Shown one piece after another: positions 12,306 through 58,600 of a stretch of DNA of 64,000 bases; positions within the stretch are counted from its first letter, which is position 1, and every line of letters starts with the position of its first letter. A program made the position numbers and the translations under genes. The notes beneath the pieces were generated by a model. That model saw only the letters and a list, made by a program, of their open reading frames with translations. It made no database searches and was not told the DNA's origin. The DNA lies in the NCBI GenBank assembly GCA_903813345.2, contig CAIIXF020000010.1, forward strand, positions 9,416,349 through 9,480,348. The letters are read 5' to 3'. The DNA is from Owenia fusiformis. Taxonomy: Eukaryota > Annelida > Polychaeta > Sabellida > Oweniidae.

Positions 12306-15300
12306 TCAAATTGAAGCACTCGTTGTGTTATAGCCATTCGATTCGTCTGGAATATACTTCCAAGTTGACCAAAATATATACATTCCAGTGCCGAGAGCAA
12401 GAATGACAATAAGTCCGAAATTCAGACAATATTTCGCCATTTTGTCTTGCTTGAGACTTGTGATTATAAGTATTCTTTGCTTCTCTTTGGTTTGTGATTC
12501 TTCCCCGATGGAATCAAACCCACACAGCCAGTCCTTCAAGGACATTGGGCACCATTTCTGTTTATCCCCATCACCACCTGCAAAAACATCGTTATACTGG
12601 ACTTAAAATTAAATTGACGTAACTAGTACCCATTCACGAGTGCGTCATCTCCAGCGTAGTGATTGAAGGAAAAGAATTGCAGATACAAATCGACGGAGGA
12701 TACCAATCATATCATCAATAGAAAACATCTGGCAAGAGTGAAAATTATAAAATAAGTGTAAAATTTTGTTCCAAATGTCAAGCGCCAAACACCGAACACT
12801 GGTTTCAGAAACGAGGGCTATAAAATGTGACAAAATATAGGATGTTCATTGGCATTTTGTTCTGTTTATCAAAGCGGCCTCAGAAAATCTCATGATCAAT
12901 CGCATGCTTAGGTGAATAATCAACTTAACATAACAATTTGTATACAGTTGGGAAATAATCATCGGGCTCATATGACATCACTCAAATGACATCATATTAC
13001 ATGACATTACTCCGTGCATATTATATCCCACATATTTAATCCATTCTAGGAAATAATCAATTCAGTTAATCAAAACACAGAAATGAAATCTTTTAACGTT
13101 TTAACCAACAACTTAGGTCTTGCTTCAAGGTCCCTGAACCCCCTCCCACCCAACAACAGGTTTCTGAAGTTAATAAGGGGGTCCAGAGTCTTGAATCATA
13201 CTAATAATAACTACATCAGGTGAGTATTAATATCTATCTGGTCGGTGAAACAATGAGCTCATTCTACCTTGTGTTGGTTGTTCCTCAACATCTTCACTTG
13301 GAGTTGTCCACACCTTTTTCCCATTTTCCTAAAATACAATATCACATCTGATTTTTCATTTTAGCATAATAGTTACTTTACAATACTCTAGTACTTTATC
13401 AAACATTTAAACTAATAAATAACGTTTGTTCATGTGTTTATTATAAAGCATAATCCGCACTCTATAATCGTTGGAGTATAGTGCTGTACAGTTCCGTACA
13501 CCCGGGGTCGTGCGGTACCGTACAGAACCGTACAATACCATTTCCAAAACGGTACCGTATGGTGCTGTTGCAGATTTGCTGTGTAGTCATTTTCCGATTG
13601 AAATACCTTTAGTTCAACGTCATCCACACTTAAAGTTGGGTTATCAATCCCTCTGGTGTCATTGGCGTCATCTCCTTGGCTTTCTTTAAGCTGATCCAGT
13701 GTAACTCCAGCTCTTACTTGCTGCAGAGTTCTAGGATCATGGCGACTCCAGAATGTCGTTTTCCATGTCTGGATATTCCAAAATAGATGTAAATACGATT
13801 ATAACAATTTTAACAAACAACCAGATACCATTAAATGTTGACTTCTGTACAGAATGAACATACAGAATGAAGGAAAATGACGGTGAACCTGACCAGTGCT
13901 AAGAGGTTCGAGGGGCATTCCTTTGAGACTGTCTGCTTCTGTTAAAGGCCCCATATAAAGTTTAAGTGAATGATAAAAACATATTTTCAAACTGCATGGC
14001 GCCTTTAAGACGTTTTTATATGTTACATCCAGTAAAGCTATGCATACCTTCTCTGGTGGAAGTGGGGCAGTAAGGACGCTGATGACAACACATACGATGG
14101 TCGTAATCCAGTAAAGTAGCATTGCAAAGTACATATAATGAAAATCTTTCAATATGGCTGGCCTCGTATCTTCCTCCCCACATTGACCCGGCGGTCGAAA
14201 AATGAATATGAGGATCAATCGTGCCAGTCCCGTCACAAACCCAGCCATTAGCCCCCAAAATGCTCCCTAAAAGAACAAAACAGTTTAGTATAGTTAAAAA
14301 GTATGGACGGATCACTCATTAGAGGTTCAATCGATTTAGGCTTCGTTTGCTTTGTTTGTATTTTACCTGTTCATTAGCCCTTGGCCAGATGACCCCAATG
14401 ACAAAGACAGCTGCAATAGGTGGAGCAAAATAATTTGTAATCTCTTGAATATAGATAAATACTTGTCCACCTTGTGTTTCCTTGACAACGGGAACCCAAG
14501 CAATAGCCACGCCCATCATCACCAATATAAACACCCTGAAATAATGTGTATCTTCTATCATCACCATGATTTTGATAAAAATAATATTTCAAAAATTTAT
14601 ATCATCAGGAATATTATGGGTCTAAATCACCGTGATGTTTTTAGAATCGCGATCAATTTCCCGCTGAAATCGCAAGCAAAATAAAGAAGAGTATAACCCC
14701 GCAGCTTAGAAAATCTTAACATTCACCAAAATTGAAAAAGTCAGCAAAAAGTCTTTTTTCATATGTTGAAAGAATTAAAGTTCATAAGCTGGTCGGAATT
14801 GATACGGGTACTATCTTTCAACCGACTCCCTCGGTCAGATATTATAAGAACCATACAATCCCTCCCTATGGATACGTAACCTTTCCTTGTTAACTTTTCT
14901 CACCTTCCAACAATCATTTGTTCTTTTGTCCCAGCCTTCTTCCTTATTTTCTTCCAAATGTCAATCGTGAACAACGTACTTGCACTGTTGAAGATGGAAT
15001 CCAAATCACTCATCAACGCTGCGATCATTACTGCCATCATGAGACCTTTTAGACCTGGACATAACATAGACTTCAAGAGATAGAGTATTCATAAAATATG
15101 GCAGTGTAGCACACCTGATTATACATCTTCCTCACCAACATCTTTATACAAGGCATTAACATGCAAAATGTCACCACCTGCCATTGGTTAGACGCCGACC
15201 GCCGAACTCAAACCGCCGAACACAAATCGTCAACCGCCGAACACGGTCACACAAAATTGAAGACTATAACAAGATGTAACCGATTCTGGTGGTGGCATAA

Positions 15301-18300
15301 AAAGCCTAAAACATATGGTGAGAATGCTCGTACAAATGACAGTCGATTGAGATGAATCTCAATGGTACAATGCAAAGGGTAGAGCATGGGATGTATAGGT
15401 ACAATCAGTCGGTACAAATCACATAGCTAGTCAAGTACAACTGTACAAACTGTTAAAATGATAACTCCAAAAATCTCCAGAGCAATGGATACAGAACCAA
15501 CTAAACTTGTTTCTACCTGTGGGCATTAGTCCAAGAACAAGTCTTGGGTATGCGATGTTTGTGCAACCTGCATAGCTCTGGCAGTATTTGTAGCATTCAT
15601 CAGGGTCGACACAAGCTACTTCGTCTGAAATATAAGAGAAAATGAAGTTAAGATGAATGGGTCAAATTGATTATGATACTATATTTCTTCGTTGATTCGT
15701 CTGCACTCAGTTTTTGAGATAAATGTACACGTGTTCTAAAGGCTCGGATTGACACTGCTCTCCAAAAGTTTGGCATGGCAACGCCGAATTTACAATTGAA
15801 GCCAGTCTGCAAATAACGAGCCAGAGCGGGGAGTATGCTATATATACAGTATTGTACCCCCATGGGCACCGACTCACTTGGGTATTTGATTCTGCTAATC
15901 ATTCCTGGCATCACCATAATGAAGAGAGGCAGAACTTTAATGAAGCCTGCCATAAGCGTCGCACCCTGAGCATGGGATAGACTTTTGGCTGCAAGAGCAC
16001 GCTGGACAATCACCTGAGGAAATTGAAAATACGTTTTATTTGTACAATTTACTGAATAACCTTCATTCCTTTTATGAAATAGAAAAGGCAATGAAAAGTA
16101 TTAATATGACAATGCCCAAGGAAAAGAAGACAACGATGCAATGAGAATGTGACAATGAGTCAAGGAAAAGAAGACATGCAATGAGAATGTGACAATGAGT
16201 CAAGGAAAAGAAGGCAACGATGAAATGAGAATGTGACAATGAGTCAAGGAAAAGAAGACAATGATGCCATGAGAATGTGACAATGAGTCAAGGAAAAGAA
16301 GACAATGATGCCATGAGAATGTGACAATGAGTCAAGGAAAAGAAGACAATGATGCCATGAGAATGTGACAATGAGTCAAGGAAAAGAAGACAATGATGCC
16401 ATGAGAATGTGTGACAATGAGTCAAGGAAAAGAAGACAATGATGCAATGAGATTGTGACAATGAGTCAAGGAAAAGAAGACAATGATGCAATGAGAATGT
16501 GACAATGAGTCAAGGAAAAGAAGACAATGATGCCATGAGAATGTGACAATGAGTCAAGGAAAAGAAGACAATGATGCCATGAGAATGTGACAATGAGTCA
16601 AGGAAAAGAAGACAATGATGCCATGAGAATGTGTGACAATGAGTCAAGGAAAAGAAGACAATGATGCAATGAGATTGTGACAATGAGTCAAGGAAAAGAA
16701 GACAATGATGCAATGAGATTGTGACAATGAGTCAAGGAAAAGAAGACAATGATGCAATGAGAATGTGACAATGAGTCAAGGAAAAGAAGACAATGATGCA
16801 ATGAGAATGGGACAATGAGTCGAGGAAAAGAAGACAATGATGCAATGAGAATGTGTGACAATGAGTCAAGGAAAAGAAGACAATGATGCAATGAGAATGT
16901 GACAATGAGTCAAGGAAAAGAAGACAATGATGCAATGAGAATGTGACAATCAGTAACGGTTAAAGACAATGATGTATTCAGAATATGGCGATGAAAGGAA
17001 AATATGATTATGAGGGAAGGGAAAGTCGACAATGAGAGGAAGGGAAAGATGACGCCAATGATGAGAAGACATATGAAAACACGACAATGAGAAAAGGAGA
17101 AAACACCAATGAAGAAATAAGAATACGACAATAAGAAAAGAGGATGACGGAAATGAAGGAATAAGACAATAAGAGGATACAATTATAAAGTAAGAAGACG
17201 ATAATGAAGGAAAAGAAAATAAGGTAAAGATGGTTGACACAAGACGTGCAACTACTTTTAATAAGCGCGATATTTATAATTTATTTTTTTAATTTTGTTT
17301 TTGACTACATATTCTTATAATTCAAAGAGTGCAGATAAGGTCAAGATCTTGCAAAGTGTACCTGGTCAGCACACCAGTACCATATAGAACCCGGTGTTTG
17401 CCCCAACAGGAACCCTGGCCAGGGCATATCAGGATCAGCAGGACCTCTCAACATTTTGAATGCATTCTCAGATGGCTTGTGACAGTCTTGTCCAGGTACA
17501 GTGACATTGGTCATTGCGAGTGGATACTTTCGGACCAATCCGTCGTACCCTCCGATATCAATGAAACCTAAAAGGATGCCAGTAACAAAACAAGGTGTTC
17601 ATTTACGGATAATTATGCTTTAGAACTCCATTTCATGGCAAAACAATTGCTATACATTGAAACCTGTAAAGTGGAACTCCTCCAGAAGTGAAACACCTCT
17701 GTTAGTTGAACACTTTTCAGAGTCCCAATTGACTAATTGTCACATGGGCATCTCTAAGTGAAATACTTTTTAGAAGTACCAAAGGTGTTCCACTTAGACA
17801 GGTTTTACTGTACGACGAGGACAAGTCATTTAGAAATGTTATAAATATATTTATTCTCAATATAAGAATATACTCTGTAGTACTATATATTCTTGGATAA
17901 CAAACAAGAATATTGTATCAATTCCATCCTATGTCATTCTCACCCATTATCATTAGGACAATAGCACCACCAACCATCAGGAAAGCCTGTAGAGTATCCG
18001 TGTATATGACTGCTGTTAGTCCACCTGATGAGTAAAAACATATTATCAACTATTCTGAAACTACATGATATTTTATAGAAAGGGCCGATCACGACCAAAA
18101 CGCGAAAATTAAATAAATCCAATTAGCTTTGCAGAAATTTTGATCATCGAATTTTCTACTCTGTAAGTCTATAGACCTTTACCTGTAATTGTCAAAACTG
18201 CTGTGATGGCGATTAGAATGAAAATGGATAAGTAGAGATCCCACCCAAGGGACTGTTGTATGAACAATGCACCTGTGTACAGATCCACCTACAATATTAG

Positions 18301-29800: not shown

Positions 29801-32800
29801 ATGGCAACAAAATGCGTAGTCATTGGAGATGGTCTTCCTTTGTTGGACTGTATCCGGATTATCCATACGAGTGGTTTAAAAGTACTCGCAACATTCAGCA
29901 ATTCAACTGATGTCCAGAACTGGTGTCAACAGCAAGGAATCAATGTTTTCTTACGGGATGCTGACCTGTTCGAAAACCTCAAGAACGAGAGATTTGATTA
30001 CTTATTCAGCGTGTTTAATCAGCGAATTTTGACCGAGGATGAACTCCAGCTTCCGGCTAAATACGCCATCAATTACACCAATGCGCCATTGCCGAAATAT
30101 GCCGGGGTCCATGCTAGCTCTTGGGCCATTCTTAATAATGAGGTCACCCATGGCGTAACTTGGCACCTCATGGACAAATCAATCAATACTGGAGATATTG
30201 TGATTCAGGAAACTGTCCAAATATCAGAAGATGATACGGCATTTAGTCTCAATATCAAATGCCAGGGTGCCATGAGGTCCTCACTCCAAGCTCTCCTCAT
30301 AGATATCAAGGCCGATCATTTGAAGTGCACTCCCCAAAACTTAGCGAAAAGGTCATACCATTCATTTCGAGACTCACCAATAAATGCGGCAGTTATCGAT
30401 TTCAAAACTACATCAGAAACTATCCACCGATTAACCAGAGGATTGGATTATGGCCAAGGAGAAAATGACTTTACAAATCCAAAGATTGTGACACCAAACG
30501 GACACGTTTTGATAGTTTTGTCTTGTGCATTGCTCAGTGGTGATAAAGGCGAGTCAAAACCTGGTGTTGTACGATCTATCGAAGGAGATTGTATTGTTGT
30601 TTCCACCCAGGATTCACATATCGAGCTGACATTGGGAGAGCCAGATGGTAGGCCCATCAAGACAGATGGTATCAAAGTGTATGGCGTCCATGTTGGTACT
30701 GAAATGCCCTCACCGAACATCTCAAAACTGGATGAACTTGGTTTACTGCAAACTACTGAACCGTACTGGAGATCGATTCTTGATACCTATCAACCAACCG
30801 AGTTCTTTCGACAGCAATACGTAGACCACACGGAATTTAAAGATGCCGATATGTACACGGAGACAATTTCTACATCAAATGAAGCGATGGAACTCTGTAG
30901 GAAACTTAAAGTATTAGACAGTAGTGACGCCATAAAGGGGGCGCTTGTGACATACATTGGCCGTGTGTGTGGTAAACATGATATTAATATTGGCTTAGGG
31001 TCAATGGACAGACAAGTTGATGTTGATTCTAGTATCAAGACGCTCTACGCAGAAATAGTTCCTTTTTTGTTCTCTGTGGAGAATTGTTCCGAGAAGACAA
31101 TCGTTGATGCAATCAGTGACGTAAGCATCAAGATAAACAATGCTTTGAAACAAGGATCGTACGCACTTGATGTCTACAAGCGCTTTCCGAGGCTAAAATA
31201 CAAAGATCGAATCCCAAGACATAATATTGTGTTAGCAACATCAACTGATGAAGTCAAAGCACAAAAGCAGGCCAAGAATTTACTCAAATATTCAAGGCTA
31301 GTGCTTACTATCTTGCCTGGCGGTGATATCGTTGTTAACATCAACAACACTATACTCCAAAGTAACCCATTCATCATTGAGCATATGAGACGGTTTAGAT
31401 TCTACATACAGAATATCATGGCCCTTGACAACGATGCAAAACTCCCGGATGTACACCTTCTGAATGCAAAGGAGCTCAATGAGTATCTGACCAATGTAGC
31501 AATGGACCCTCCCCAAGAAGCGATAGATCAAACTCTCGATAACATGTTCCTCGAACAGTGTGAGAAAACTCCAAATGCAACAGCTGTTGTATCGAACGAA
31601 AAAATGGCAACGTATGCCCAGTTGCGAGATGCTTCAAAACCCTTATCAAAGTTCATACAGCCGATATTTGGAGACACTTCTAAGGAACGCTCAGTTATAG
31701 GACTGTATATTCCAAACTCATGCGAATACGTTGCTGTCCAGCTCGCTGTTCTAATGAGTGGCCATGCGTTTCTGCCTCTTCCTGTAGAATATCCCCAGGA
31801 GAGAACTGAATTCACAATCAATGATGCCAAAGTGAAGCATGTCATTACCCTGCGGAATTTATACACTGACGTCATCTCTAATTTCAAATCATGTCATGGA
31901 AAAATGACCGTTGTACCAAATTTCGGCATATGCGAGGACTTTGTTATTCTTACACGTGATAACGTCGACAGGGAAACAGAGGAGCTCTGCCAAGCCAGAG
32001 TGAACCAAAAGTTAGCATATGTGATTTATACTTCTGGGTCGACCGGCGTCCCTAAAGGTATCCAGATATGTCATTCTGGTGTCTGCAACGCCATTGATTC
32101 ATGCATTCGGGTCTTTGGCATGAGCTCTAGTGACACAGTAGCTCAGTATGGCTCGATCGGTTTTGATGCTTCCATAGTGGAGATCTATATAGCTTTGGGA
32201 GCAGGGGGAAAGATTGCTATCTTCAATGATCAACAACGAATAGGAAATGGCTTTATTGAAGCAATGAAAATATTTCAAATCACGACAATTGCCATGACTC
32301 CTTCTACTTTGAAACTCTATGATCCCTCGGATTTTCCAGACTTGAGGGTGATAATATCGTCGGGGGAAGCATGTGACAGGCAGACAGGGGAAGTGTGGTC
32401 TGGACCAAATAGAACACTCTATAACGGCTATGGACCAACAGAAGTATCAATTGGAGCAACCCTATATGGGTACAACCCCGAGACATCAGCTGAGTACAAC
32501 GATCTACCCATTGGGAAACCCTTCTCAAATGTTTCTATTTTCCTGCTAGACGATTGCCATAAACCAGTACCCGAGTATGTTCCTGGTGAACTACTTGTTG
32601 GCGGAATAGGAGTGAGTCTTGGATATCTAGGTCACGCTACTGATAGAAACAAAGACGTCTTTGTCCCCAATGTCCTAGGACCAAAACCCAAATATTTGTA
32701 CAGGACTAACGACGTAGTATTTCAAGATAAATATGGCGATGTACTTTATGTTGGCAGGAGGGACAAGATGATCATGTTTAGAGGTCAACGAATTGAACTG

Positions 32801-33433
32801 GGAGATATTGAAAGAGTCTTTATGCAGCAGACAGAAGTCGAGTCAGCTGTTATAGTTCTTCATGATGGAAAACAACAGGGGGACGAACCGTTCTTAGCTG
32901 CATTTGTGTCACCAAGTCACGTGAATATAGCTAAACTGAAACTATCTGTGTCCCAAACATTACCACCAGACACTCGCCCGACCGTCATCAGACCAATTAA
33001 TGTGAACGAACTGCCCAAAACTGTGAATGGAAAGATTGATAGAGATATGTTGGCCAAAGATGGGAGTGTTTACAACTTTGTGAATGCAGCTGATGACGCT
33101 GAGAAAGATAACATGGGAGAGACGGAAGAGGGAATTGCTAAGATATGGAGCAAACTCCTGAAACTACAACCTGAAGATGCTGCTGGTATTAATAAAGACA
33201 GTAGTTTCAGAGAGTTGGGTGGAAACTCGTTGTCTCTCATTCTCTTACAAAAAGCTATCAAGAAGGAATTGGAAACTGATTTATCATACTTCGAACTGAT
33301 AAGCTCGGACATTCTTGGAGCACTTGCGACTAAAATCAAGGAAAAACGAATTGAAAAACCGAGCGAATCTGATGACCTTCAAAACATGCCAGTCGAATTG
33401 AAGAAAGAGCTTCTGACACTGCGTCAAATGTGA
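29801..33433 (+). CDS. NRPS-like synthetase, F-C'-A-T part (interrupted before the reductase domain)
   Basis: As an uninterrupted ORF it is 1,210 aa. Residues 1-190 form a methionyl-tRNA/10-formyl-THF formyltransferase-like fold (NAPLPKYAG, THGVTWHLMD) followed by a formyltransferase C-terminal-like region (about 200-300). Two of the three usual catalytic positions (Asn-His-Asp) are changed: the His site is Thr93 and the Asp site is Asn129. Residues 320-555 resemble only the second lobe of a condensation domain (EPYWRSIL...), with no HHxxxDG. The adenylation domain (about 585-1085) has YTSGSTGVPKG (from Tyr743), FDAS, YGPTE (Tyr877), GRRDK and the catalytic-lysine motif VNGKIDR. The carrier domain has LGGNSL with Ser1143. 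Expected role: ATP activation and thioester loading of an unknown carboxylic or amino acid. The stop and last codons (from 33417) come from the inserted transposon at 33417-39427. The original protein continued into the reductase at 39428. Confidence 0.92.
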   Translation: MATKCVVIGDGLPLLDCIRIIHTSGLKVLATFSNSTDVQNWCQQQGINVFLRDADLFENLKNERFDYLFSVFNQRILTEDELQLPAKYAINYTNAPLPKYAGVHASSWAILNNEVTHGVTWHLMDKSINTGDIVIQETVQISEDDTAFSLNIKCQGAMRSSLQALLIDIKADHLKCTPQNLAKRSYHSFRDSPINAAVIDFKTTSETIHRLTRGLDYGQGENDFTNPKIVTPNGHVLIVLSCALLSGDKGESKPGVVRSIEGDCIVVSTQDSHIELTLGEPDGRPIKTDGIKVYGVHVGTEMPSPNISKLDELGLLQTTEPYWRSILDTYQPTEFFRQQYVDHTEFKDADMYTETISTSNEAMELCRKLKVLDSSDAIKGALVTYIGRVCGKHDINIGLGSMDRQVDVDSSIKTLYAEIVPFLFSVENCSEKTIVDAISDVSIKINNALKQGSYALDVYKRFPRLKYKDRIPRHNIVLATSTDEVKAQKQAKNLLKYSRLVLTILPGGDIVVNINNTILQSNPFIIEHMRRFRFYIQNIMALDNDAKLPDVHLLNAKELNEYLTNVAMDPPQEAIDQTLDNMFLEQCEKTPNATAVVSNEKMATYAQLRDASKPLSKFIQPIFGDTSKERSVIGLYIPNSCEYVAVQLAVLMSGHAFLPLPVEYPQERTEFTINDAKVKHVITLRNLYTDVISNFKSCHGKMTVVPNFGICEDFVILTRDNVDRETEELCQARVNQKLAYVIYTSGSTGVPKGIQICHSGVCNAIDSCIRVFGMSSSDTVAQYGSIGFDASIVEIYIALGAGGKIAIFNDQQRIGNGFIEAMKIFQITTIAMTPSTLKLYDPSDFPDLRVIISSGEACDRQTGEVWSGPNRTLYNGYGPTEVSIGATLYGYNPETSAEYNDLPIGKPFSNVSIFLLDDCHKPVPEYVPGELLVGGIGVSLGYLGHATDRNKDVFVPNVLGPKPKYLYRTNDVVFQDKYGDVLYVGRRDKMIMFRGQRIELGDIERVFMQQTEVESAVIVLHDGKQQGDEPFLAAFVSPSHVNIAKLKLSVSQTLPPDTRPTVIRPINVNELPKTVNGKIDRDMLAKDGSVYNFVNAADDAEKDNMGETEEGIAKIWSKLLKLQPEDAAGINKDSSFRELGGNSLSLILLQKAIKKELETDLSYFELISSDILGALATKIKEKRIEKPSESDDLQNMPVELKKELLTLRQM
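33414..33416. repeat. Left 3-bp target duplication (TGA) of the CACTA-like element
   Basis: TGA lies directly before CACTGCGTC and again directly after the right terminus (39428-39430). A 3-bp duplication is the EnSpm/CACTA hallmark. Confidence 0.85.
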
Positions 33434-34010
33434 AATTCCAAGCAATTTCTAGACGTGCAAAGATAGTCTAGGAACTCCGCGTATCTAGAGATTCCAAGAC
33501 GTGTCAAGAGGTGCAAAGACCTCGCGTGTAAAGAGCGTGTCGAGAGTTTTGATATCTCTTTGCACAGTCTTATCAAAACAAACAGTATAATTAGACCGGC
33601 CACATGTTGTTATGCCCTATAGTCGCGCTTAATTATACTTTACTAGGATTGGAATATAACAATCATTTTAATTTCGTGTTAATAATAATTTGTGTTTTTT
33701 AAATCATTATCAAAATAAAATTAATTTAAAAGTATGCGTGTGCGTGTAAGTATAGGCAATAGCTTAGTCGAAATGAGTAGATGTGTGCAGATAGAGATCG
33801 CCTATGTATTTTGCTAAATCTGACATTTTTACAGGATCATGTTAAAGATCAAATGAAAACAAGAAATGTGTTTTTCTTAGGTTTATCTACCCTGATTTCG
33901 AGTGATTTTAACTTGGACGCATATTCCTAGATATTAAAACAGTTTGAATAATTAACAAAGTCCACTTTGAACCGTGTCAATCAAATTGTCAAATATGTAG
34001 ATAGCACATG

Positions 34011-34209
34011 CAGGCCCGAATACAGGGGGGATAGATTGGTTCTAGCGACCCCCCCCCCCCTCCGTGACCAAAATTGCATTTTTTACCCCATACTGAGCAC
34101 CTTTTAAATTATTTTGCTCATTTTTGAACTAACATTGCCAAAAGTAAACTCCCCCTGGAATTTCTTAAAAAAGTAACACACCCCTTGGCAAATCCTGGCT
34201 ATGGGTCTG
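34011..34209. repeat. caggcccg...gggtctg MITE copy inside the CACTA-like element
   Basis: 'caggcccgaatacagggggg' to 'ttggcaaatcctggctatgg gtctg'. It shares ends and interior with 62841-63012 and 51121-51230. Confidence 0.6.
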
Positions 34210-35538
34210 AAACGCCTGAAACATGCTCTGATATAATGAGGCATATTCTGTGATCTGAGCATATCAGATGGGAAGAGTTATGAATGTCAATAAGTGTGAT
34301 TGTTATCATGTAATCATCTACCTTAATGTCAATACATTACATAATGTAGTAAGGCATTGTACATGTATTTAACAACAGGCACATCCTTCTTCAAAGGACT
34401 TCATTTATACTTGTAAAATACCCTTCCAGTGAGGATGCAACAGGCACAGTTACACAAGTTTTATGACCCCAATTAGATGAAATATGAGCTGGGATGAAAG
34501 ATCTCAAAAATCAAGGGCTGGGAAGATTTGAGATGTCATGGTTTACTATCATGACGCTGAAACATGTGTCGCTTATTGTCACCTGTATTGATCATGATGG
34601 GGCGACGGCAGTGCCCCGAGTCTTTTTGATCTGTTTAATCTTATTAGTTACTATTTAAAATTGAATAATTTAGGACCCCGGAAGCAAAACAACTCTTTGT
34701 TATGAAAGGAATACACCACCCGGACAGAACCCCTCATGTAAACCATCTATAAATACCTTTGAAATCAATTTGATTTTCGATCTACATCTGAATCTCAGAT
34801 GGAGAGTACTCTTTGACAAGATCAACATTTAAAAGTGTAGGAAAGTTTTGATAAAGATGTTTAATAGCTAATTATTCAGACATATTGTTCTTTCATGTTG
34901 ACGATGATGATATTTGCAATTTTGAATTTTGAATTATTTTGAATGCAAATGTACTCAAGTCCCGGGACTCAAGTACTATATCCTGAGTTCTGCCCGGATC
35001 CCCGAAAACGTTTAAAATCAAACTCGATTATTTAGCTAGACTTCAAAATAAGGGATTCAATAGAAACATGAAATCCATATCACTGTATAGATTGTGGAAT
35101 TTCTAGTAATTTTTAGACGTGCTTAGCCGGTCTAGAAACTCTGCGTATCTAGAGATAGAGGAGGGGAGAGAGGGCTAATTTTATAGCTGAAATTAAAAAT
35201 AGCTTATGATCTATAAATATAATATATGGTTGTTCTTATAATGAACAACTATTGGTTTAATATCTGATATGTGGACGGATATTTCTTGATTTGGTTTAAA
35301 AAGAAACTGAATGTAGGGTTGCAAAAATGAGGGAGACAAAGACGTTCGAAGGGTGGGGGTAAAATTTAATTAAAATCAAGCTAAGATAGAATGAGAATAA
35401 ACATATCTGTTAGTTGCTCATGTAAACGAAAACAAATTAGAGGGTTCATTAGCACCGCAGACCAGATTTGCAAAATTGGGGGAGTGCATTTTCCCAGGAT
35501 TTCAAACAATACTATATCTAAAATGTTGCCCCTCATAT

Positions 35539-35677
35539 GCCTGGGTCATATTTGCTCCGATTCATCGGCCGGGGGCCGGCCGATTGAGTGTTTTTTCAAA
35601 CATGAAAACAATTTTAAACAAAATACTCAATCGGCCGGAGGCCGGACGATGAATTTGAGCAAATGTGAACCAGACAT
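35539..35677. repeat. Short cggccg hairpin element
   Basis: 'gggtcatatttgctccgatt catcggccg' is mirrored by 'cggacgatgaatttgagcaaatgtgaacc'. The arms contain 'atcggccgg' in both orientations. Related in motif style to the 21020-22676 foldback element. Confidence 0.55.
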
Positions 35678-35679
35678 TG

Positions 35680-36420
35680 CAAATTCCTTCAAAATTGAAC
35701 TAGAAGTTTCAAATGAAAGCCATTCAAAGCTCCTTTCTTCTTCCTTCTCTATTGGTTAAGCAGGGGGGGTGCGATCATTCACGAATCGCACCCCCCCCCC
35801 CCCTGGTTACGCCTATGTGTTAAAACTTTACACAATATCAATATTTAAAACTGTATCTTGTAAGTGGCTTATTAAGCATCAGATCAATCACTAAGAACCC
35901 CTCTTATCTGCCGTTTGCGTTTGGAAGGATAAAGACAAAGGGGACGCGGCTACATGTATATCGCGATAACGTGAAATCTTTATGACATATCCCTTCACCC
36001 TCTACACCAATATTCTTAACACCACTTATTAAAGGATGTATGCATCAAGGGGTAGACATCATTCAAAAGACATAAACATGACCGGGTCGGTCAGGGGAAG
36101 GTTTGCATACGATGCAATTTGTACATGCAAGCTCATTTTTCACATATAAATTAATAAAGTCGATTCCTTGGGAATACGTTATTGGGTTTATTAGCGTAAC
36201 GAGGAGAAGCGGTGGGTTCGCACCCTCTCCTACAAGCAATAAAAGGTACCATAAGGTAGAGGAAGAAAAGAGCATTAAATTGATTTTTTGTTTGAAGCTT
36301 CTAGCTCAGGTTTGAAGGAAGTTGCATCATTTTCGTAAAAATTCAAAACGACTGAAAACCTAAAATATTTTGGTGATTGCATCACCCCTCCACCCGACTG
36401 AAAGCTGGCTGCGGCCCTGG
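35680..36420. repeat. gtgcgatc / poly-G MITE fragments (two, opposite orientation)
   Basis: 35690-35815 has 'aaattccttcaaaattgaac tagaagtttcaaatgaaagc', a G run, 'tgcgatcattcacgaatcgca' and a C run. 36280-36415 carries the same blocks in reverse order ('gaagcttctagctcaggttt', 'gttgcatcattttcg', 'gactgaaagctggctgcggcc'). They match 24985-25190 and 45848-46126. Confidence 0.55.
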
Positions 36421-37229
36421 GGTTTTATCGAAAACTATATCGTCAACATTTTATCATTATGCGGAAAGTCCAATATGAAATCTTAAATGGTAAATATGTT
36501 GCATTTATGGAGGGAATTCCACTGTAAACTATAATGTGAATGTTTGATATGAATACTTCCATACAACCATCAATATCCATTCTTTTGAAATAAGATGTTA
36601 CAACAAAGGGAATATTGAAAACTACAGTGGTAAGAGCATCTTTCTGACTGCTAATTATGTGTATCAACATTTTGATTGCACCTCAGCTGGAGATTAAATC
36701 TTATAATAATTTGATCAAAGGGATTGTAATTTTCCCCAATTCGCTTTCCTATGTTACAATCTGTATACTTGTTATATTGTGAGCGGTATGTGTTGATAAA
36801 CCAAAAAGATATGTTTTTTGGATATCAACATTTAGAAAAAAGTGTAAGATACCATTCTATATGTTTATCTTAGTGTTTAGCATAGGTAAGAATGGGGGAT
36901 GGGCTGGCGGGGGTCCGTCTTTGAATAATTCCAAGGGTTCATATATTATCACAATTTTGCTACAAAATCACTTGGAAAGTGCATGATTTGAACGATTATT
37001 TGGCCAAGGCGTCCGCTATTAACATGAGTATGAATTTTATAAAAAAAATTACTTGAATCAAAATCGAAGAATTCCTTGCCCCGTGTGTTCACCATTCACC
37101 CCGGGGGTTCACACTCGGCTCAGGTGGGGCACCTTTTTTACATTTGGTATGTCAAGCCAATGGACCCACATTTTAAGACAGATTTTTCCATTTTCTGGTA
37201 TAAGAATCGGTGTGGAAAATATGTTACCC

Positions 37230-37465
37230 CTCAATTGTGGTACGGCATTGGTCCCGGGGCATTGGTCTAGTTGTTACACATATCCTTCATTTGAGGTTGT
37301 TTATGATCATTTTACTCAAAGATCTGCCTTCTTCTCGGGGCATTCGATATTTCGAATGGCATTGGTCTTATATTCTGGATATTTGGTACCCGGGGGTATG
37401 GCATTGGTTCTATATTTGGATGTTTGACATGGCATTGGTCTTGTGTTTGGACATTTGATATGGCT
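37230..37465. repeat. Degenerate 'ggcattggtc' tandem repeat
   Basis: Five to six loosely spaced copies of 'ggcattggtc' with 'tggatatttggta'-like spacers, roughly 30-50 bp apart, inside the CACTA-like element. Confidence 0.45.
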
Positions 37466-39427
37466 TTTTGGGGTTTATTTTAGTTTATATGAGAACACAT
37501 TTAATGCCACCCCCCCCCCAAATTACAAATCTACATCTATTCTCTCTATCCCAAAGGTGGATCGGAATCATGAAAAACAGATGCAGACTCGGGACAGTTG
37601 CAAGGGGGGCTATAATGGAGAAATTCGTTTTGATTTTGAGTCTAACTGAAATATTTTGTCACAAATATTAATTAAATACGCAAATAGCCTGTTTTATTAA
37701 ATGAGACTAGGGCAAAAAATCTATTCATTAAATCTAAAGCCTAGACGATATCTTCTGTAATCAAGGTGGTTTTGGTACACTTCCGCAATTATAAAAACAA
37801 AAACATAGACTAAGTTATTAATCTTTTGTTATCATATCAGATTAAGTCAGTTTTGTCTCCGATTGTTATGCAGGTGTGTGTATCGACTCCAGTGAACAAC
37901 ATTAAGTGAATCAATCCTTGAAATTCCCAAATTCATTCCAAATTCTGGCCGTTAACCCCCCCCCCTCCCCCATGTCTCTTAATTACATTTATTTTGCAAA
38001 TGATATATAAATTATAGATTAAAATATTTCATTTTCGAATTTCGAATTTAATATCAATAGTCAAACAAATTAAGTAGTATGCTACAGTTGGTTATCAATC
38101 GGAATTCACGACCTATTGATTACTCTTTAATACAAAATTTAACCATTTTAGAATGGGTAACTCACACCCCCCCCCCCGTCCATGTCCATGAAGTGCGTAG
38201 ACTGACATAATAGTGTCATTTATTAATTAAACATCACTGATTTATGTTGAGACATTCAGTGCGATTGTTTCATTTCTTTGTTCAAAAAGTTAAAGCACCA
38301 ATTAAATACATATTTTTATCACACAAAAGGGGCAGAATACTTGACCTTGTATCAATTTATATCCCGATAATTCTTTACAAGGGAATGTTTCTTATTAAAA
38401 CATAAGCAGCGCCTAGGCGTCGATTGGGGGGGGGGGTCAATCCGGTGTTCTCAGGCTATGTACAGCCAAGTATCCTGTTTATGTAAAAACCCTACGTTCC
38501 CGAATCACAATCAGACAATTAATTAGTATATTTGCTGTGTCTAGCAATTGATCATAGAATTAGATGTTGCGAAAACTATGGGAACTTGTACCTGTCTGTT
38601 TATGGATAGGCTGGGAAAGAACAGCAGAGAGAATGGTACATTCGATTGAATATGCTTGTTTTGCCCAATTGTGTATTAAAATGCCCCTCATTTATCATAT
38701 ATTACAAGTTAAGTCGGCGATAATTTGTATTGACTTAACTTGAAACAAATTACTCCGAAATCCAAATACTCATCGAAAAGTAAGGTTATCTTTATATTAA
38801 GCTAATACAAAATAAATATATAAATAGGCCTGATGTATCAGTGTTTTCAAAGTTTATTGCACGTTTTATCCTTGAAACGCCTTTCTTTTTCTTATCATGA
38901 TATGTATTTCCTTCAGTTAGGATCAATGCGTCGATTAGCATTGCCTGTAACTGATTTATATTTTCAAAAGGCGCCATGAAATTGCCAAAATGTTTAAATA
39001 AGTCAATATGTCAGCGTACATACAAAATAGTCTGTTTAATATTTGCTACATGTACTTGTTCCAAACAGTCTGCGAAAGAATGATTAAAAATATATCAATT
39101 AAAAGTATCAGAGAAAATACTTGCAATCGTTAAAATACTGTATGTATTGCTATTGGTAATTAGGTTAGTTGTTTACACATAATTATGTTGTTCAGTGTGC
39201 CAAGAGCGTGTCAAGAGATTCCATTAATTGTCACAGGGCGTGTAAAGACTTTTTGACATGGTCTTTACACGTCTTTGCACTGCGTGTGCCAAGAAGTGCA
39301 AAGAGGTGTAAAGAGTTGAATTCATCGCGTGTCAAGAGGTGTAAATAATTGGCACGTCTAGAAACCCGGCGTGTAAAGACCAGTTTCTAGACGTGTCAAG
39401 AGTTGGAATCCCATATTTCACGCAGTG

Positions 39428-40614
39428 TGAAGGACTCCACTCTAGACGTGAATGCGATTGAATCCTTGGCAGATAAAGAAAATGTAGTTGGCCCTCTTCA
39501 GTTGACAACCGATCCAATCAACATTCTCCTGACAGGCGCTACTGGATTTCTGGGGTCTTTTATCTTACATGGGATCATGGAATCTACAAATGCAATGGTC
39601 TACTGCTTAGCTCGAGGAAAGACTGATTCAGATGCGTTTAGTAGAGTGAAATCTGCGCTTGTAAAGTTCAGCAACTGGAAGGACGAGTACGAGGCTAGAT
39701 TAGAAGTGATCAAGTCAGATCTTGCTGATGTCAACTTGGGGCTAACGTCTTCTCAATATGAGAAACTCTGTCTTAAGATTGACGTTGTCTTCATTAATGC
39801 TGCAAAGATGGACTTCAACTCCCCATACAGTGATCATAAAACCGCTAATGTTGAAAGTACATTGTCTCTTATTAAGCTAGCGGCCACCCACCACAAAAAG
39901 TTCCTCTTCTCTGTCTCCTCTCTGAATGTATTCCTCTTCCCATGTACCAAATATAAGGACTCGGCAAATGGTATGCCTGTACTAAAGGAGACAGATTTCT
40001 TCGAGGATCCGTCAACGCTAGTCGGTGGATATGGCCAGAGTAAATGGGCATCTGAAAGGCTGGTTCAGCAAGCTCTTAAGGTGCTTCCTGGTGGTGCCAT
40101 CTTTCGACCAGCTAGAATAACCGGAAGGTCAACAGATGGAGCAGGTCCGACCAGTGATTTCTTCGCACTTTTCCTAAGAGGTGCCATTCAGTTGGGTTCC
40201 TATCCAACAGTCCAGTTCCCATTTGACTTGACGCCTGTTGACTATTGCGCCAAATCAATCACCCATATTATGACCAAAATATGCACCGACAGTACACATC
40301 ACCCAACTGTCTTCCACCTAAACAACACCAGAGTCATCAAATTTCATGAACAATTTCAAGGACTCGGGCTGAAAGCATTGCCATTGGAGGAGTGGTGTGA
40401 CGAATTCGACAAAACAGCCACTGAGAAGAATCCACTATACGCCCTTGGGCCATTTATCACAGACGCCTTCAGAATTGCAGATGGATACCGTTGGCCATTG
40501 TTTGATGATGAAAACACAATGCAAATATTGCCACGGGATATCAAAAACATTTTGAAACCAACCAAAGAACTTTTAGAAATCTGCTTCAAATTTTTGAATA
40601 TTTCTCGTCGTTAA
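39428..40614 (+). CDS. NRPS-like thioester reductase (R) domain, 3' part of the interrupted gene
   Basis: About 394 codons in the same frame as the pre-insertion upstream ORF. It is a short-chain-dehydrogenase-type NAD(P)H-dependent reductase of the NRPS terminal class (NAD_binding_4). The nucleotide motif is TGATGFLGSF, the serine is in SVSSLNV, and the catalytic Tyr/Lys are in GYGQSKWASE, with RPARITG and TPVDYCAKS further on. The linker reads KDSTLDVNAIESL, of the LDxxI type seen before R domains. There is no ATG before the nucleotide-binding motif (the first in-frame Met comes about 15 residues after TGATG), so it is not a free-standing gene. It must be reached by splicing or it is now untranslated. 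Expected role: NAD(P)H-dependent reductive release of the carrier-bound thioester as aldehyde or alcohol. No frame damage is seen. The CACTA-like element immediately precedes it. Confidence 0.9.
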
Positions 40615-40870: not shown

Positions 40871-41670
40871 GCTAAATAATAGGCATATGGTGCATTAATG
40901 GGGAAATATTAATGTCAGTCTTATTATATACTATCTAGTAACAATTACTTTTATTAAATATGGCCTATCAATTCTTCAAAAGGGAAAAATAATTTACGAC
41001 TTTTTATTTGTGTGAAAAGTTTTTTTGTATTTCGGAATTGTCAATTTTTGTTGCACTTATACTTGTACATTAAATAATATGCTTTACCCGTGTAAAATAA
41101 ATAAAACACTTAAAATAATGCATATTGACTAATTATAAACAATAAGTAAAGCATTGAATATTCCGGATAATATCAGAGAAAGATAGTTACGTTTCCAATG
41201 TGTACAATTAGAAAGAAAAGTAGTTCTGAGTCTAAATCTACATATTTTTACATGACACTTGGGGATAACCACCAACCAGGCATGTGGCTACCAAGGCAAC
41301 TGCCTCGCCAAAGTTTTTGTAAATTCACACATGGATAGGTAATGTGTGTCCGATTCCAGCCAATCCGAGCATAGAACTTTAACATGACAGCAGTGCATGA
41401 AATCATCAATAACGCATTTGTTGTGTATGGTTGTTAAGGTGATGAGATTGCAATTGATGCTTTAGCCAAAGACTCATTCAACTTCATTCAATTCAGGGGT
41501 TGTTTCCTAAACTTTGCATTCCCGCTGCGAGGCAATGCAAAGGTTTGGAACAACTCATTCATGGTATGATTCGGCAAATAATGCGTCCTTCAATTAAAGT
41601 CCAATGACATCAGATTCATCAGATATTCAGATTATATGCAATCTTAAAACACATGTTTTTGTCATTTCAG
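40871..41670 (+). other. Spacer between the two NRPS-like genes
   Basis: AT-rich with no coding content. The promoter and any untranslated first exon of the second gene should lie here. The region ends in the acceptor TTTTTGTCATTTCAG (41656-41670), 21 nt before the start codon. Confidence 0.4.
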
Positions 41671-41691
41671 TTGCTTGTAAAATTACAAATC

Positions 41692-44409
41692 ATGGCTGAC
41701 AGCGACTCGCCATTATCCAATGGCGTCCAAAGTCAACAACAGTCAAAAGGAACGCCGAGTGTTACAAACACAAATGGAAAGCTCGAAACCACAAATCACG
41801 CAAATGGAACAAAAAGGCTTGATAATTGTACAGAATGGTTAAATGGCCTTAACAAATATGAACCTACGACGTTCTTCCGACAGGGCTATTATGAAGATAA
41901 AGAGCATAAGACGAATCTGACAAAAAGCGAAGATATTAAAAGCTTGACATTTGATATCCCAGCGGTTGGAGGAGAGCAATGCGAATATGCAATGGATACA
42001 CTGAGTGCCACAAAAGGTGCCTTCATTGGGTATCTGTCAAGAATATGTGCAAAGACTGAAATTCACATAGGGGTCGAGGCAGATTTAGGATCGGTGCCCG
42101 ATGATGAAAGAAGCAAATATTCTGAAATTATTCCCGTGAGTTTCGTGATAAACCATATGATGTCCATCAACAGCGCTTTGAAAGAATACGCATCGAAACT
42201 CAATGAAAGTGTTGATGTTAATATTGAGAATGGTGAATTAAACAAGAGAGCAAACCTTAGAAAGAACAATGAGGAACCAGTGCATAATATCGTCATTGGT
42301 CCGGGCGCTAAACCTAATACAGCTTTGCTAGCAAACTGCAAGATTGTTTTGTTCTTCAACTTAGAGGGAACAACGTTCACTGTATTTTGGGATGATAGAA
42401 GGTTCCTAACAGAGCATAATAAAAATGGTGAAAAAATCTCCAGTTATTTCGGACACTTTCAGAGCTACCTGAATAATCTAATATCCCTTGGGTCAAAAGG
42501 TGATATGAATCAAATTGAACTGCTTGGTACCGATGAGAGAAATGCTATACTGCAAGTGCCAGCGTTTGAAGCTCCCAATAGTTTAGTTGCTATATTCTCT
42601 GCAACATGTGCAAGATACCCTAACTCGACTGCGCTTGTCTCTGGCAGCAAACAATTAACATATAGCCAACTAAAAGAGGTTTCTGAAACCATTGCTAAAG
42701 AACTTGAAGCAAGAATACAAAGTGATAGTACAAGAAAAGTCGTCATTGGACAATATTTGCAAAATTCTATTGGGCTGATAACAAGTCAGATTGGTATTCA
42801 CATAGCGGGGCATGCATTCTTGCCTTTACCCGTTGAAAACCCGAATGAGAGAACATGTTTCACAATAAAGGATGCAAAGGCCAGATATATCATAACTGAT
42901 AATGAGAGTTTTGAGAATATCAAAACTTTGGACATCTACTCCTCGGGGAGTAAGGTTTCTACTATAGACGATCATGAAGGGTTGGTGCTTATTGAATTCA
43001 CTTCTATTGAATCTGATCCAAAACTTGAACAATATCACAAAAATGAAGATCTGGCGTACGTGATGTACACATCAGGTTCGACAGGGGTGCCTAAGGGTAT
43101 TCAGGTTACACATCGGGGAGTGGCTAATTGTATCATGGGATTTGCACAAGGTTGGGAACTGACATCTTCCGATATCGTTGCTCAATTTGCGTCAATATCG
43201 TTTGATGCATCTATCATGGAAACGTATTGCGCTTTTTTTGCTGGGTCATCTCTGGTGATTCTGGATAAATCACAACGTATCGGGAAGGGTTTTATCGATA
43301 CTATGAACAAGTATAAAATAACTACAATATCCCTTACCCCATCGGCGTTAAAGCTTTATGACCCAACTGATTTCCCATATGTTACCAAAGTTATATCAGC
43401 TGGTGAGGCGTGTGATCGTCAAACGGCCGGACGCTGGCATTCAAAATCCGCTGTCTTCATGAACGCCTATGGCCCAACAGAGATTTCCATCGGTGCAACA
43501 TTGCATCGATTTAACCCAATGAAATCAAATGTCAACAACAGCAATGATCTGCCAATAGGTTCTCTATTGCCAAATGTCAAGGGGTATATTCTTGATGAAT
43601 GTGACAAGCTGGTCCCAAAAAATACAGAGGGTGAGTTGGTCTTGGGAGGCCCCGGGGTTGCTCTCGGATATTTGGGACATGCGGCCCCTAGAAACAAAGA
43701 ATCATTCATATCTGATTTGTGTGAGACAAATGATAGCATGTTTTATAGATCCGGGGATATTGTGTTCCGGGATGATAATGATGACATTGTGTACGTGGGA
43801 AGGAGGGATAAGATGGTCAAATTGAGAAGTCAAAGGATTGAGCTTGGGGAAATTGAAAGGGTCTTTCAACAAAATGAGAAAGTTGAACAGGCTGTCGTTG
43901 TGCTTCATAGCAAATGCTCCATGTCCCATCCTGATTCCATCGTTGCTTTTGTCACCCCCATTGATGTAAATGTCAATGAAGTCAGAGCGTTTATAACAAG
44001 ACTACTTCCAAATTATATGATCCCAAGCGTTATAAAGGAAACCAACACTGCTGATTTACCCGTAACAATAAGTGGGAAAATTGACCGACTTGCACTATCT
44101 AAAGATGAAACGATACATGCAGGTGGCGCTTCTCAGATAAGTAATGGGGACAGTGATGGGTTAGATGATTTCCAAAAACAGGTTGCCATCACTTGGATAA
44201 AAGTTCTCAAATTAGACAACGATTGTATGAGTAAAATAGGCAAGGAAACTTCATTCAGGGAGCTTGGAGGAAACTCCTTAACTATGATTAACCTCCAAAA
44301 ATCTCTGAAAGTTGATTTAAATGTTGAGTTGACATACTTTGAATTAATGAGTTCTGATACATTGGGAAAACTTGCTGATCTTGTGCAATCGAAAATAACA
44401 ATATCCTAG
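41692..44409 (+). CDS. NRPS-like synthetase paralog, C'-A-T
   Basis: 905 aa, one coding exon. The start is ATG GCT GAC at 41692; the in-frame ATG at 41653 lies upstream of the splice acceptor at 41669-41670. Domains: a short low-complexity leader; a half-condensation-like region (about 45-270; WLNGLNKYEPTTFFR, FIGYLSRI, no HHxxxDG); an adenylation domain (about 295-790) with YTSGSTGVPKG (Tyr459), FDAS, YGPTE (Tyr593), YRSGD, GRRDK and SGKIDR; and a carrier domain with LGGNSL and Ser862. It ends right after the carrier with no reductase, thioesterase or transferase. It is clearly homologous to the 29801 gene through C', A and T but lacks the F and R domains. Expected role: activation and covalent loading of a substrate, perhaps delivering it to another enzyme. 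Same strand, 1.08 kb after the reductase stop, consistent with tandem duplication. Confidence 0.92.
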   Translation: MADSDSPLSNGVQSQQQSKGTPSVTNTNGKLETTNHANGTKRLDNCTEWLNGLNKYEPTTFFRQGYYEDKEHKTNLTKSEDIKSLTFDIPAVGGEQCEYAMDTLSATKGAFIGYLSRICAKTEIHIGVEADLGSVPDDERSKYSEIIPVSFVINHMMSINSALKEYASKLNESVDVNIENGELNKRANLRKNNEEPVHNIVIGPGAKPNTALLANCKIVLFFNLEGTTFTVFWDDRRFLTEHNKNGEKISSYFGHFQSYLNNLISLGSKGDMNQIELLGTDERNAILQVPAFEAPNSLVAIFSATCARYPNSTALVSGSKQLTYSQLKEVSETIAKELEARIQSDSTRKVVIGQYLQNSIGLITSQIGIHIAGHAFLPLPVENPNERTCFTIKDAKARYIITDNESFENIKTLDIYSSGSKVSTIDDHEGLVLIEFTSIESDPKLEQYHKNEDLAYVMYTSGSTGVPKGIQVTHRGVANCIMGFAQGWELTSSDIVAQFASISFDASIMETYCAFFAGSSLVILDKSQRIGKGFIDTMNKYKITTISLTPSALKLYDPTDFPYVTKVISAGEACDRQTAGRWHSKSAVFMNAYGPTEISIGATLHRFNPMKSNVNNSNDLPIGSLLPNVKGYILDECDKLVPKNTEGELVLGGPGVALGYLGHAAPRNKESFISDLCETNDSMFYRSGDIVFRDDNDDIVYVGRRDKMVKLRSQRIELGEIERVFQQNEKVEQAVVVLHSKCSMSHPDSIVAFVTPIDVNVNEVRAFITRLLPNYMIPSVIKETNTADLPVTISGKIDRLALSKDETIHAGGASQISNGDSDGLDDFQKQVAITWIKVLKLDNDCMSKIGKETSFRELGGNSLTMINLQKSLKVDLNVELTYFELMSSDTLGKLADLVQSKITIS

Positions 44410-55600: not shown

Positions 55601-58600
55601 ATAAACTTCTTCCACACTTCTGGGTCATCCACATAAGGCACTATCTTAGGCATTGTTGCTTCCTCCGTTTCTCTCAAACTTCTGATGCCCATGACTAAGG
55701 TTTCTCTTTATATTCTCATCGTAGTGACGAAAAGGGTCTACCAAACGTTCATTCACAAAATCTCACTACATTCTTCTTCCATCTCACCAGATGTATCTGT
55801 ATCTTCTGAATCATGTCCGTCAATAGACTCCTCATCGTTAAACATTTCATCAGCTATATAAGAATATTTGGCCAAAGTTTTTCTGATAGCTCTCGACAGA
55901 GACATGTCTTGATCAACTAAGAATTCAATTTCTTCTACTATTTCTCGATGTACATCAGCATCTTTGACTTCAATAAATAACCTCAGAATTTCACCATAGT
56001 CATTTAAAAACTCAGATTTTGCTTTGGGATAAAGTTTTGCTTTGAGCTTTTGAGTAATTTCCTTCTCTGGTAATCCCCTGGTAGTGTATTTTTCATACAA
56101 AGTGTCAGCTTCTTTTTTCAATACATCCAACACGTTCTGCTTCAGAGTAGAAAATGTATAATTTTCCTTCAAATCTTCAGCATGGGGTTCACTTTTACCA
56201 GAGTCTTCATATTGGCAATATTTTTGATGTATGTCTGCATGTTTTGTGGTAATCAACACTGTTCCACAGTCTTTACAATGGGGGAGATGTAAAACGGAGG
56301 GGTTTCTTAGAGTAACATCATCCATTGGACCTGGATACGTAGCATCCATCTGAGTTGGTTGAACAATGGTATTTGGTCGGAATTCCGACATATCTTGCCT
56401 CTGTTGAGCAGGGGAGCTCCCTGCCGTGTTATAAAAATGTTGAAATGATGTATATGGAACACTTTCTGCAACTTGCTGCAATGCATTAGGCTTAAGCCTC
56501 GAACCATCTTCAGTTTCTTGCTTCAGATCCACCACTAAGTAACCAAATGGATTTTCCGTAGCTTGTCTGTAAATGTCAAGTAAAGTATGTGTCTTTCCAG
56601 GATACATTTGAGATGCCAAAACACTTATCTGTCTTTGATCCCTCGGGTTCTTGAATAGAACCAAGTAATGGCTGTTTAAGCTCATTGTTCTGCTTTCTCC
56701 ATTGGGTGGGAAAATATTTTGTTGTAACGTGATAATGGATATATTTTTGTGATGAGAACCCGCTGTGTATAGCAATGTAACTGCCTTGTTAAGGTCCGCC
56801 ATGAGATCATCTATCACAACCAAATTGGTCACATTTCCATCGAAGTAATCGGGCTTCATCAAGTCATCGCAAAGTCCCATAACAAACTCGATATGAGGCT
56901 GTTTTCTCTTTATTTCTGCATACAAAGGCTGCCATTGTTTGAAGAACCATACTATTCTTTGTGGTGGTGGATTGATTAATTGTTCGGCTCTATCAATAAG
57001 GTCGACAACATAGGTTGTCTTTCCACATCCAGTAGGACCTGCAACAATTTTAGTAAATGGATGCCTGAACTGTATAGGTGAGTCGAGATCGAAGTTAGTC
57101 TCATCTTTTTGTGAATGTTTCTCATATGTCTCAGAAGAATATCCTTCCTGGCAAATGTGCCAGAACACACAGAGCAAATATAATCCATGTTGCCACGTAG
57201 ATGAGGTTGCGCTGAATGAATGAATCAAGCCTGCTTTTCACTTATATAGTTTTAATACATCCCTCTGTTGAATAAAATATGATAAAGGCACAAAAGGTGG
57301 CAGCGGGGGTGGCGGTGGTGGCGGCGGCGGTGGCGGTGGCGGCGGCGGTGGGGTCAAAGAGTGCAAAAATCTGATCTGATTGATTGAAATGCTTCTGCAG
57401 CTCATTTGCATATACACTTTGATTGGTCGAAAATGTTCTGCTGTAAAACTGTTAACGTTAGCATTTTTTATTTATTTTGTAGGGGTTTATATTTTTATCA
57501 GTGGCATGTTAAATTAACAGATGCCTATTAAAGGGTGTTATTTTGTATAGTGGGTGGGTGTCTATTTTGTGAAAATGCCTTAAACTCCAAAAATTAGCAG
57601 AAATTGATCAACAGTTACTGAAATCGCCCAAACGTGACACTTAAAAAATACTTTAAAATGTTCCAACAATCAGATTATGACTTGCAGAATCATGCAAATG
57701 GTGGTGGCGGCGGCGGCGGCGGCGGTGGCGGCGGCGGTGGGGTCAAAGAGTGCAAAAATCTGATCTGATTGATTGAAATGCTTCTGCAGCTCATTTGCAT
57801 ATACACTTTGATTGGTCGAAAATGTTCTGCTGTAAAACTGTTAACGTTAGCATTTTTTATTTATTTTGTAGGGGTTTATATTTTTATCAGTGGCATGTTA
57901 AATTAACAGATGCCTATTAAAGGGTGTTATTTTGTATAGTGGGTGGGTGTCTATTTTGTGAAAATGCCTTAAACTCCAAAAATTAGCAGAAATCGATCAA
58001 CAGTTACTGAAATCGCCCAAACGTGACACTTAAAAAATACTTTAAAATGACCCAGGAGTAAGAATCAAGTGATCATTTGGTAAAAGAATGCCTCAAACTC
58101 CAGGAATCACCAAAAATCACTCAAGCATAAAAATTGTAAAAATGCTCTTAAATGTATCGGGAGTAAGAATACAGTGTCCATTTGGTGATTAAATACCTCA
58201 AACTCAAGAAATAAGCAAAAATTACTCAAGCGTGAAGATTGGAAATAAGAAACAAGTGACTGTTTGGTGAAAAAATAAGCAGAAATTGATCAACAATGAC
58301 AATTTAAAAAATATTCTTAAATAACTCAGGAGACTTTTTGGTTATAAAACTTCAATACGGGTCTGAACTGGCATTTATAATTTTGATACTTTGATACGGG
58401 TCTGAACTGGTTTAGTGGTGGAACATATCTCTAATTTGTCAAATTTCTACCATAATGTACTATGTTTGGTTAAAATAATTCTGCAAGTCATAATCTGATT
58501 GTTGGAACATTTCTCTCATTGGTTGATTTTGCTGTTTTCTGATTGGATGAAAATATACTGTCCCCCGATTGGTTCAAACAGTCCATACATACTGTTTCCT

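Follow-up and report, generated by a model that had tools for sequence, protein, structure and literature searches.

A CACTA/EnSpm-like transposon with candidate splice sites near its ends in the only exon of an Owenia fusiformis reductase gene

A single-exon gene split by a transposon

A 64,000-nt stretch of the Owenia fusiformis genome (hereafter the window, with positions counted from its first letter) contains a forward-strand gene, at 29801-40614, that codes for formyltransferase, AMP-binding, carrier and reductase domains, as identified with Pfam. The gene has a single exon, which is split by a DNA transposon flanked by a 3-bp target site duplication. Sibling copies with the same ends occur elsewhere in the genome, and a database protein is identical to the product of the gene without the insert. 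The explanation that we consider probable is a recent CACTA/EnSpm-like insertion that forms a presence/absence allele, with the carrier form giving mostly a truncated product.

Features of the split gene and of the element are collected in Table 1. The last three bases of the 5′ gene part are one copy of the target duplication, and a transcript read onward without splicing meets a TGA that begins 14 bases into the element. Within the element, every stop-to-stop frame is shorter than 150 aa. In the reductase frame downstream (39391-40614) the first methionine lies only beyond the GATGFLG motif, and the statement of a first-pass annotation that this frame lacks a usable ATG was thus borne out. 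The same annotation proposed an in-frame intron at 33430-39425; these are the borders of the proposed intron but not those of the element, which spans 33417-39427.

Table 1. Positions of the gene parts, the element and the candidate splice signals in the window.
Feature	Positions	Strand	Basis or remark
5′ gene part: formyltransferase PF00551, AMP-binding PF00501, carrier PF00550	29801..33416	+	Pfam; identical to P0121 here
Target site duplication TGA, left copy	33414..33416	+	Read directly; 3-bp duplications also in siblings
DNA transposon, non-coding, 6,011 bp, ends CACTGCGT...ACGCAGTG	33417..39427	+	Ends common to siblings
Left terminal inverted repeat	33417..33441	+	Inverted pair I4, 26-nt arms, 85% complementary
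Candidate splice donor AAT/GTGAAA (slash, border), 13 nt inside left end	33430..33431	+	Score -0.61
In-frame stop TGA, met without splicing	33431..33433	+	Product 1,210 aa ending TLRQM
Left subterminal repeats, CGTGTCAAGAG / GTGTAAAGA type	33436..33549	+	Families D1, D2, D6, D10
AATAAA polyadenylation-type hexamer, sense, 297 nt into element, first of five there	33714..33719	+	Hexamer match only
Internal copy of the element's left terminus, 78%	35081..35156	+	Family D4
Right subterminal repeats	39197..39408	+	Families D1, D2, D6, D10
Right terminal inverted repeat	39403..39427	-	Inverted pair I4
Candidate splice acceptor CACGCAG/TG, 2 nt inside right end	39424..39425	+	Score -0.59
Target site duplication TGA, right copy	39428..39430	+	Read directly
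3′ gene part: thioester reductase PF07993, reading frame intact, no usable start codon	39431..40614	+	Pfam; identical to P0121

The insert-free form of the gene

P0121, listed as an O. fusiformis 'unnamed protein product' of 1,599 aa with the reductase included, was retrieved when the 5′ part of the gene served as the query of a protein search. Joining the gene at the empty site gives a product of the same length, identical to P0121 throughout. Four single cuts in the window yield P0121, with borders TG..TG, GA..GT, AC..TG and CA..GA, none of them canonical, and no single GT-AG or GC-AG intron in the window gives this protein. Since P0121 is identical to the empty-site product and no single canonical intron accounts for it, the gene also exists without the insert, and a presence/absence polymorphism is the most likely reading of the insertion, judging from the sequences compared. 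In the genome searched (G000, 498,259,871 bp, with the window on contig C10) the reductase query gave one match at E 0.001 or better, which ruled out a paralogue or second haplotype contig as a control. P0121 and P0262, a protein of a second window gene, are both recorded on a contig of 37,473,021 bp, and none of the 12 large contigs C1-C12 of G000 is of that size.

The published O. fusiformis assembly (505.8 Mb) came from the sperm of one male and was reduced to haploid form with purge_haplotigs. Its annotation combined transcriptome evidence, among it Trinity transcripts aligned by GMAP, and involved a liftover from one assembly to another (PMC9977687). Such merging and lifting would be compatible with P0121 having been annotated on the inserted chromosome from other animals' transcripts, across a non-canonical gap, or with the window insertion being an assembly artefact, and the database record of P0121 gives the protein and contig size only. 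However, the former would still require insert-free transcripts, while the target duplication is perfect and the ends match those of the siblings exactly, which speaks against the latter, and we regard this pair of explanations as highly improbable.

The intact reductase had been considered as an argument for splicing, and the first-pass annotation held that the reductase could be expressed only in this way. This is true of the inserted allele, but an insert-free protein is on record. Because an insert-free form exists, the intact downstream frame alone is not proof of splicing, and with the element copy also being young it was rejected as evidence.

A young family with shared ends

The exact 23-nt left end of the element occurs 97 times in the genome, 47 times forward and 50 times reverse (control, 0), and the exact 13-nt right end 117 times (control, 9). 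A 221-base query across the left end gave 309 candidates; among the 40 matches scored, 39 were elsewhere, at 97-99%. Twenty siblings were fetched and 9 kb was read for each, with the exact right end falling within the read in 16 and not in 4. Matching 3-bp duplications were present in all 16 of the copies with both ends and also at the L064/L107 copy. Six of the fetched siblings (L009, L010, L016, L017, L025 and L028) align with the window element over nearly its full length at 96-99%, and the other 14 are set apart by large gaps or insertions, or by lower similarity, as little as ∼90% in long stretches; L018 has little in common with the window element except the ends. Relative to eight siblings, the window copy carries 34 private substitutions and nine private indel events, or ∼0.6%.

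The termini of CACTA/EnSpm elements follow the motif CACTR...YAGTG. Assignment to this class was based on CACTG ends, 3-bp duplications and subterminal repeats, which we take to be its features. The ends are those of the window copy and of 16 of the 20 fetched siblings (four having no exact right end), the duplication is found at the window copy as well as at the siblings named above, and repeat families D1, D2, D6 and D10 recur at both ends. The CACTA transposase family PF02992 has 14 matches in the genome, and all four PF02992 loci that were read lack the element's ends and the searched subterminal motifs within 3.4-3.5 kb. Three PF02992 loci, L109, L110 and L111 on C1 and C6 of G000, do not differ at any of 3,492 bases, a hint that another kind of CACTA-type element was amplified very recently; a PF02992 gene with a 608-aa open frame was found with equal score at nine places. 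Within the window element, the internal left-end copy points to an old terminus, nested or duplicated, and an imperfect large hairpin with 67-nt arms lies at 35537-35677.

Insertion of other copies into exons was assessed from 600 nt of left flank read for each of the 97 copies, with frames scored if open for at least 400 nt up to the element. Two flanks had such a frame in sense (the window and L064) and four in antisense (L017, L041, L067 and L069). L064 was rejected as another case of sense insertion into a host gene, its left side holding the C-terminus of a long terminal repeat (LTR) element integrase (PF22938); its joined frame ends at a stop 11 codons further, a C2H2 finger match past this stop is below the cut-off, and the site was treated as repeat sequence. 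The L017 antisense frame, considered as a host exon, proved to be an LTR-retroelement reverse transcriptase, and that of L041 resembles an endonuclease/reverse-transcriptase family weakly and below the cut-off. The antisense frames of L067 (searched with a shortened query) and L069 gave no family match, and so are not shown to be repeats. A shorter sense frame at L061, open for 330 nt, matches DUF1280 (PF06918). Frames open for 309-360 nt at L075, L087 and L092 and in antisense at L064, and a 201-codon antisense frame that spans the empty site of L026, were not included in the family searches. No clear second host coding exon was found among the 97 left flanks, with short exons unscored and several shorter open flanks unsearched.

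Candidate splice sites and the carrier allele

The GT 13 nt inside the left terminus and the AG 2 nt inside the right terminus, both pointed out in the first-pass annotation, were verified by direct reading, and the pyrimidine-rich tract described before the acceptor is present but modest (CCCATATTTCACGCAG). The proposed intron is 5,996 nt long. Joining 33429 to 39426 (exons 29801-33429 and 39426-40614) leaves an open frame of 1,605 aa, compared with 1,599 aa without the insert; as claimed, exactly 18 nt are added and phase is kept, the six extra codons reading TLRQIV. This exon footprint (13 nt, 2 nt and the 3-bp duplication) would be the same for the copies of the family and always a multiple of three; it would be stop-free in two frames, and in the third too unless the duplication starts with A. 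TLRQIV would fall in the variable stretch between the carrier and reductase domains, and all four aligned homologues lack at least five of its six residues.

Scoring of both sites, which the earlier annotation had recommended, was performed with matrices of human splice-site frequencies rather than a calibrated model. The donor has no G at -1 or +5. Its score was equalled or exceeded by 12.3% of the 3,386 GTs in the window and that of the acceptor by 13.7% of the 3,327 AGs, and within the element 49 of 334 GTs and 40 of 300 AGs scored at least as well (all counts include the candidates themselves). The comparison with known introns uses one gene, a transporter in the window whose seven introns, mapped with P0262, have donors scoring 0.5 to 6.7 and acceptors -3.1 to 7.8; the candidate donor is below all seven and the candidate acceptor is inside their range. 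In a post hoc test, 600 stretches of 3-4 kb of window DNA, taken as non-coding, were placed at the insertion site. An in-frame, stop-free GT..AG pair no more than 30 nt from both ends was found in 186 of them, a score sum equal or better in 12, and a pair as good at both sites in three. The arrangement is better than chance, and the donor is weak in absolute terms. In antisense orientation a single GT falls in the 30 nt next to the end, with a score of -5.2.

The same sites recur across the family. All 97 copies share the GT because the search pattern contains it; with the two letters freed, the 23-nt pattern still had 97 matches, only about one variant being expected at this divergence. The AG near the right end, 2 bases in, is given by the CACTG terminus read on the opposite strand, and the acceptor therefore comes with the transposon type. 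As far as the copies reveal, the candidate splice sites are family-wide end sequences, common to at least 97 places, and not an adaptation at this gene. The proposal that the ends act as splice sites making an in-frame intron is right about a geometry that would restore the frame, but the end sequences are not particular to this locus and the donor falls short of those in mapped introns.

We propose that the gene's only exon recently received a non-autonomous CACTA/EnSpm-like transposon from a young multi-copy family, giving rise to a presence/absence allele in O. fusiformis. Given a stop so close to the left end, a weak donor and an AATAAA 297 nt into the element, carrier-allele transcripts would mostly read into the element and stop at the TGA at 33431, and the chief product would be a 1,210-aa protein that lacks the reductase. 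The near-end GT and AG would be part of the family's fixed termini, permitting in-frame removal without having evolved for this gene, and such removal may occur at a low level from the carrier allele. An En/Spm (dSpm) insertion in maize A2 is reportedly spliced through its terminal sites, as the title of Menssen et al. 1990 has it, and by analogy some in-frame splicing here is quite possible.

Several observations weigh against the proposal of a recent insertion with a mostly truncated product. If the private changes were all post-insertion, 1,182 neutral bases should have accumulated ∼6.7 substitutions and ∼1.8 indels, yet the reductase frame is fully intact, with zero amino-acid differences from P0121; a younger insertion, recombination or continued selection would be needed. 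A splice-site pair as good as the candidate one arose in just 3 of the 600 random inserts, and the polymorphism is deduced from one protein record, P0121.

Efficient removal of the element as a spliceosomal intron, with the carrier making the 1,605-aa protein with TLRQIV in the carrier-reductase linker, would account for the exact phase, the join without a stop, the rarity of such sites among random inserts, the position in a variable inter-domain stretch and the intact reductase frame, and would match the arrangement reported, by title, for dSpm in A2. On the other side stand a donor without G at -1 and +5 that is below all seven window introns, the many equal or better GTs and AGs in the element, the AATAAA and the absence of TLRQIV from the known protein P0121, and we consider efficient splicing not very likely. 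A combination of both outcomes, in which leaky splicing gives a little full-length protein from a mostly disrupted allele, would suit sites that are weak yet usable-looking, and such leakiness is known for plant transposon alleles; we consider it quite unlikely.

Other genes in the window include a tandem neighbour at 41608-44409 with AMP-binding and carrier domains in one frame and no reductase. The transporter gene used above, at 12309-15917 on the reverse strand, is multi-exon and sodium/myo-inositol cotransporter-like; the Owenia protein P0262 corresponds to its 3′ portion, and further exons to ∼22.9 kb are suggested by translations only. A 494-aa frame with a P-loop at 55753-57237, also on the reverse strand, resembles viral packaging-type ATPases (adenovirus IVa2, poxvirus A32) weakly and below the cut-off.

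Like dSpm in A2, the Owenia element is CACTA-type, with splice sites at its termini that could form a novel intron in a gene; unlike it, the host is an animal and the donor is weak, and splicing is reported for maize whereas the Owenia sites are candidates read from sequence. In two soybean studies, kilobase-sized CACTA elements in genes lie in introns (PMC4219821, PMC2613891), with 3-bp duplications and subterminal repeats (PMC2613891), and splicing of such an element is the subject of the former by its title (PMC4219821). The Owenia element resembles these in size, location in a gene, duplication and subterminal repeats (PMC2613891) but is in an exon rather than an intron (PMC4219821, PMC2613891). 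Introners, as described by Gozashti et al. 2022 (PMC9860276), are DNA transposons with terminal inverted repeats and target duplications, some with both splice sites; those of Aureococcus add whole codons (12 bp), and introners form many introns per genome, with family median lengths of 30-654 nt. The Owenia element likewise has inverted repeats, target duplications and candidates for both splice sites, and would add whole codons (PMC9860276). It differs in its 6-kb length, in being known from its DNA alone and in the window copy being the sole clear host-exon case among 97 flanks. General introner behaviour of the family is not supported by the flanks, as scored for frames open for at least 400 nt. 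Candidate splice sites do lie near both ends, the GT 13 nt and the AG 2 nt inside, the donor being weak; an animal CACTA-like family becoming an introner, with the donor at its left end, the acceptor at its right and an intron presence/absence polymorphism caught at birth with the insert-free allele as control, is unlikely on these sequences.

The origin of new introns in animals is poorly documented, and no animal CACTA-derived intron appeared among the open-licence papers listed by literature searches, as judged from the listings and some passages. If carrier RNA showed no junction, the Owenia element would be an ordinary gene-disrupting insertion that resembles an intron on paper. If the junction were present, the locus would offer a natural experiment in which a single species has the two alleles.

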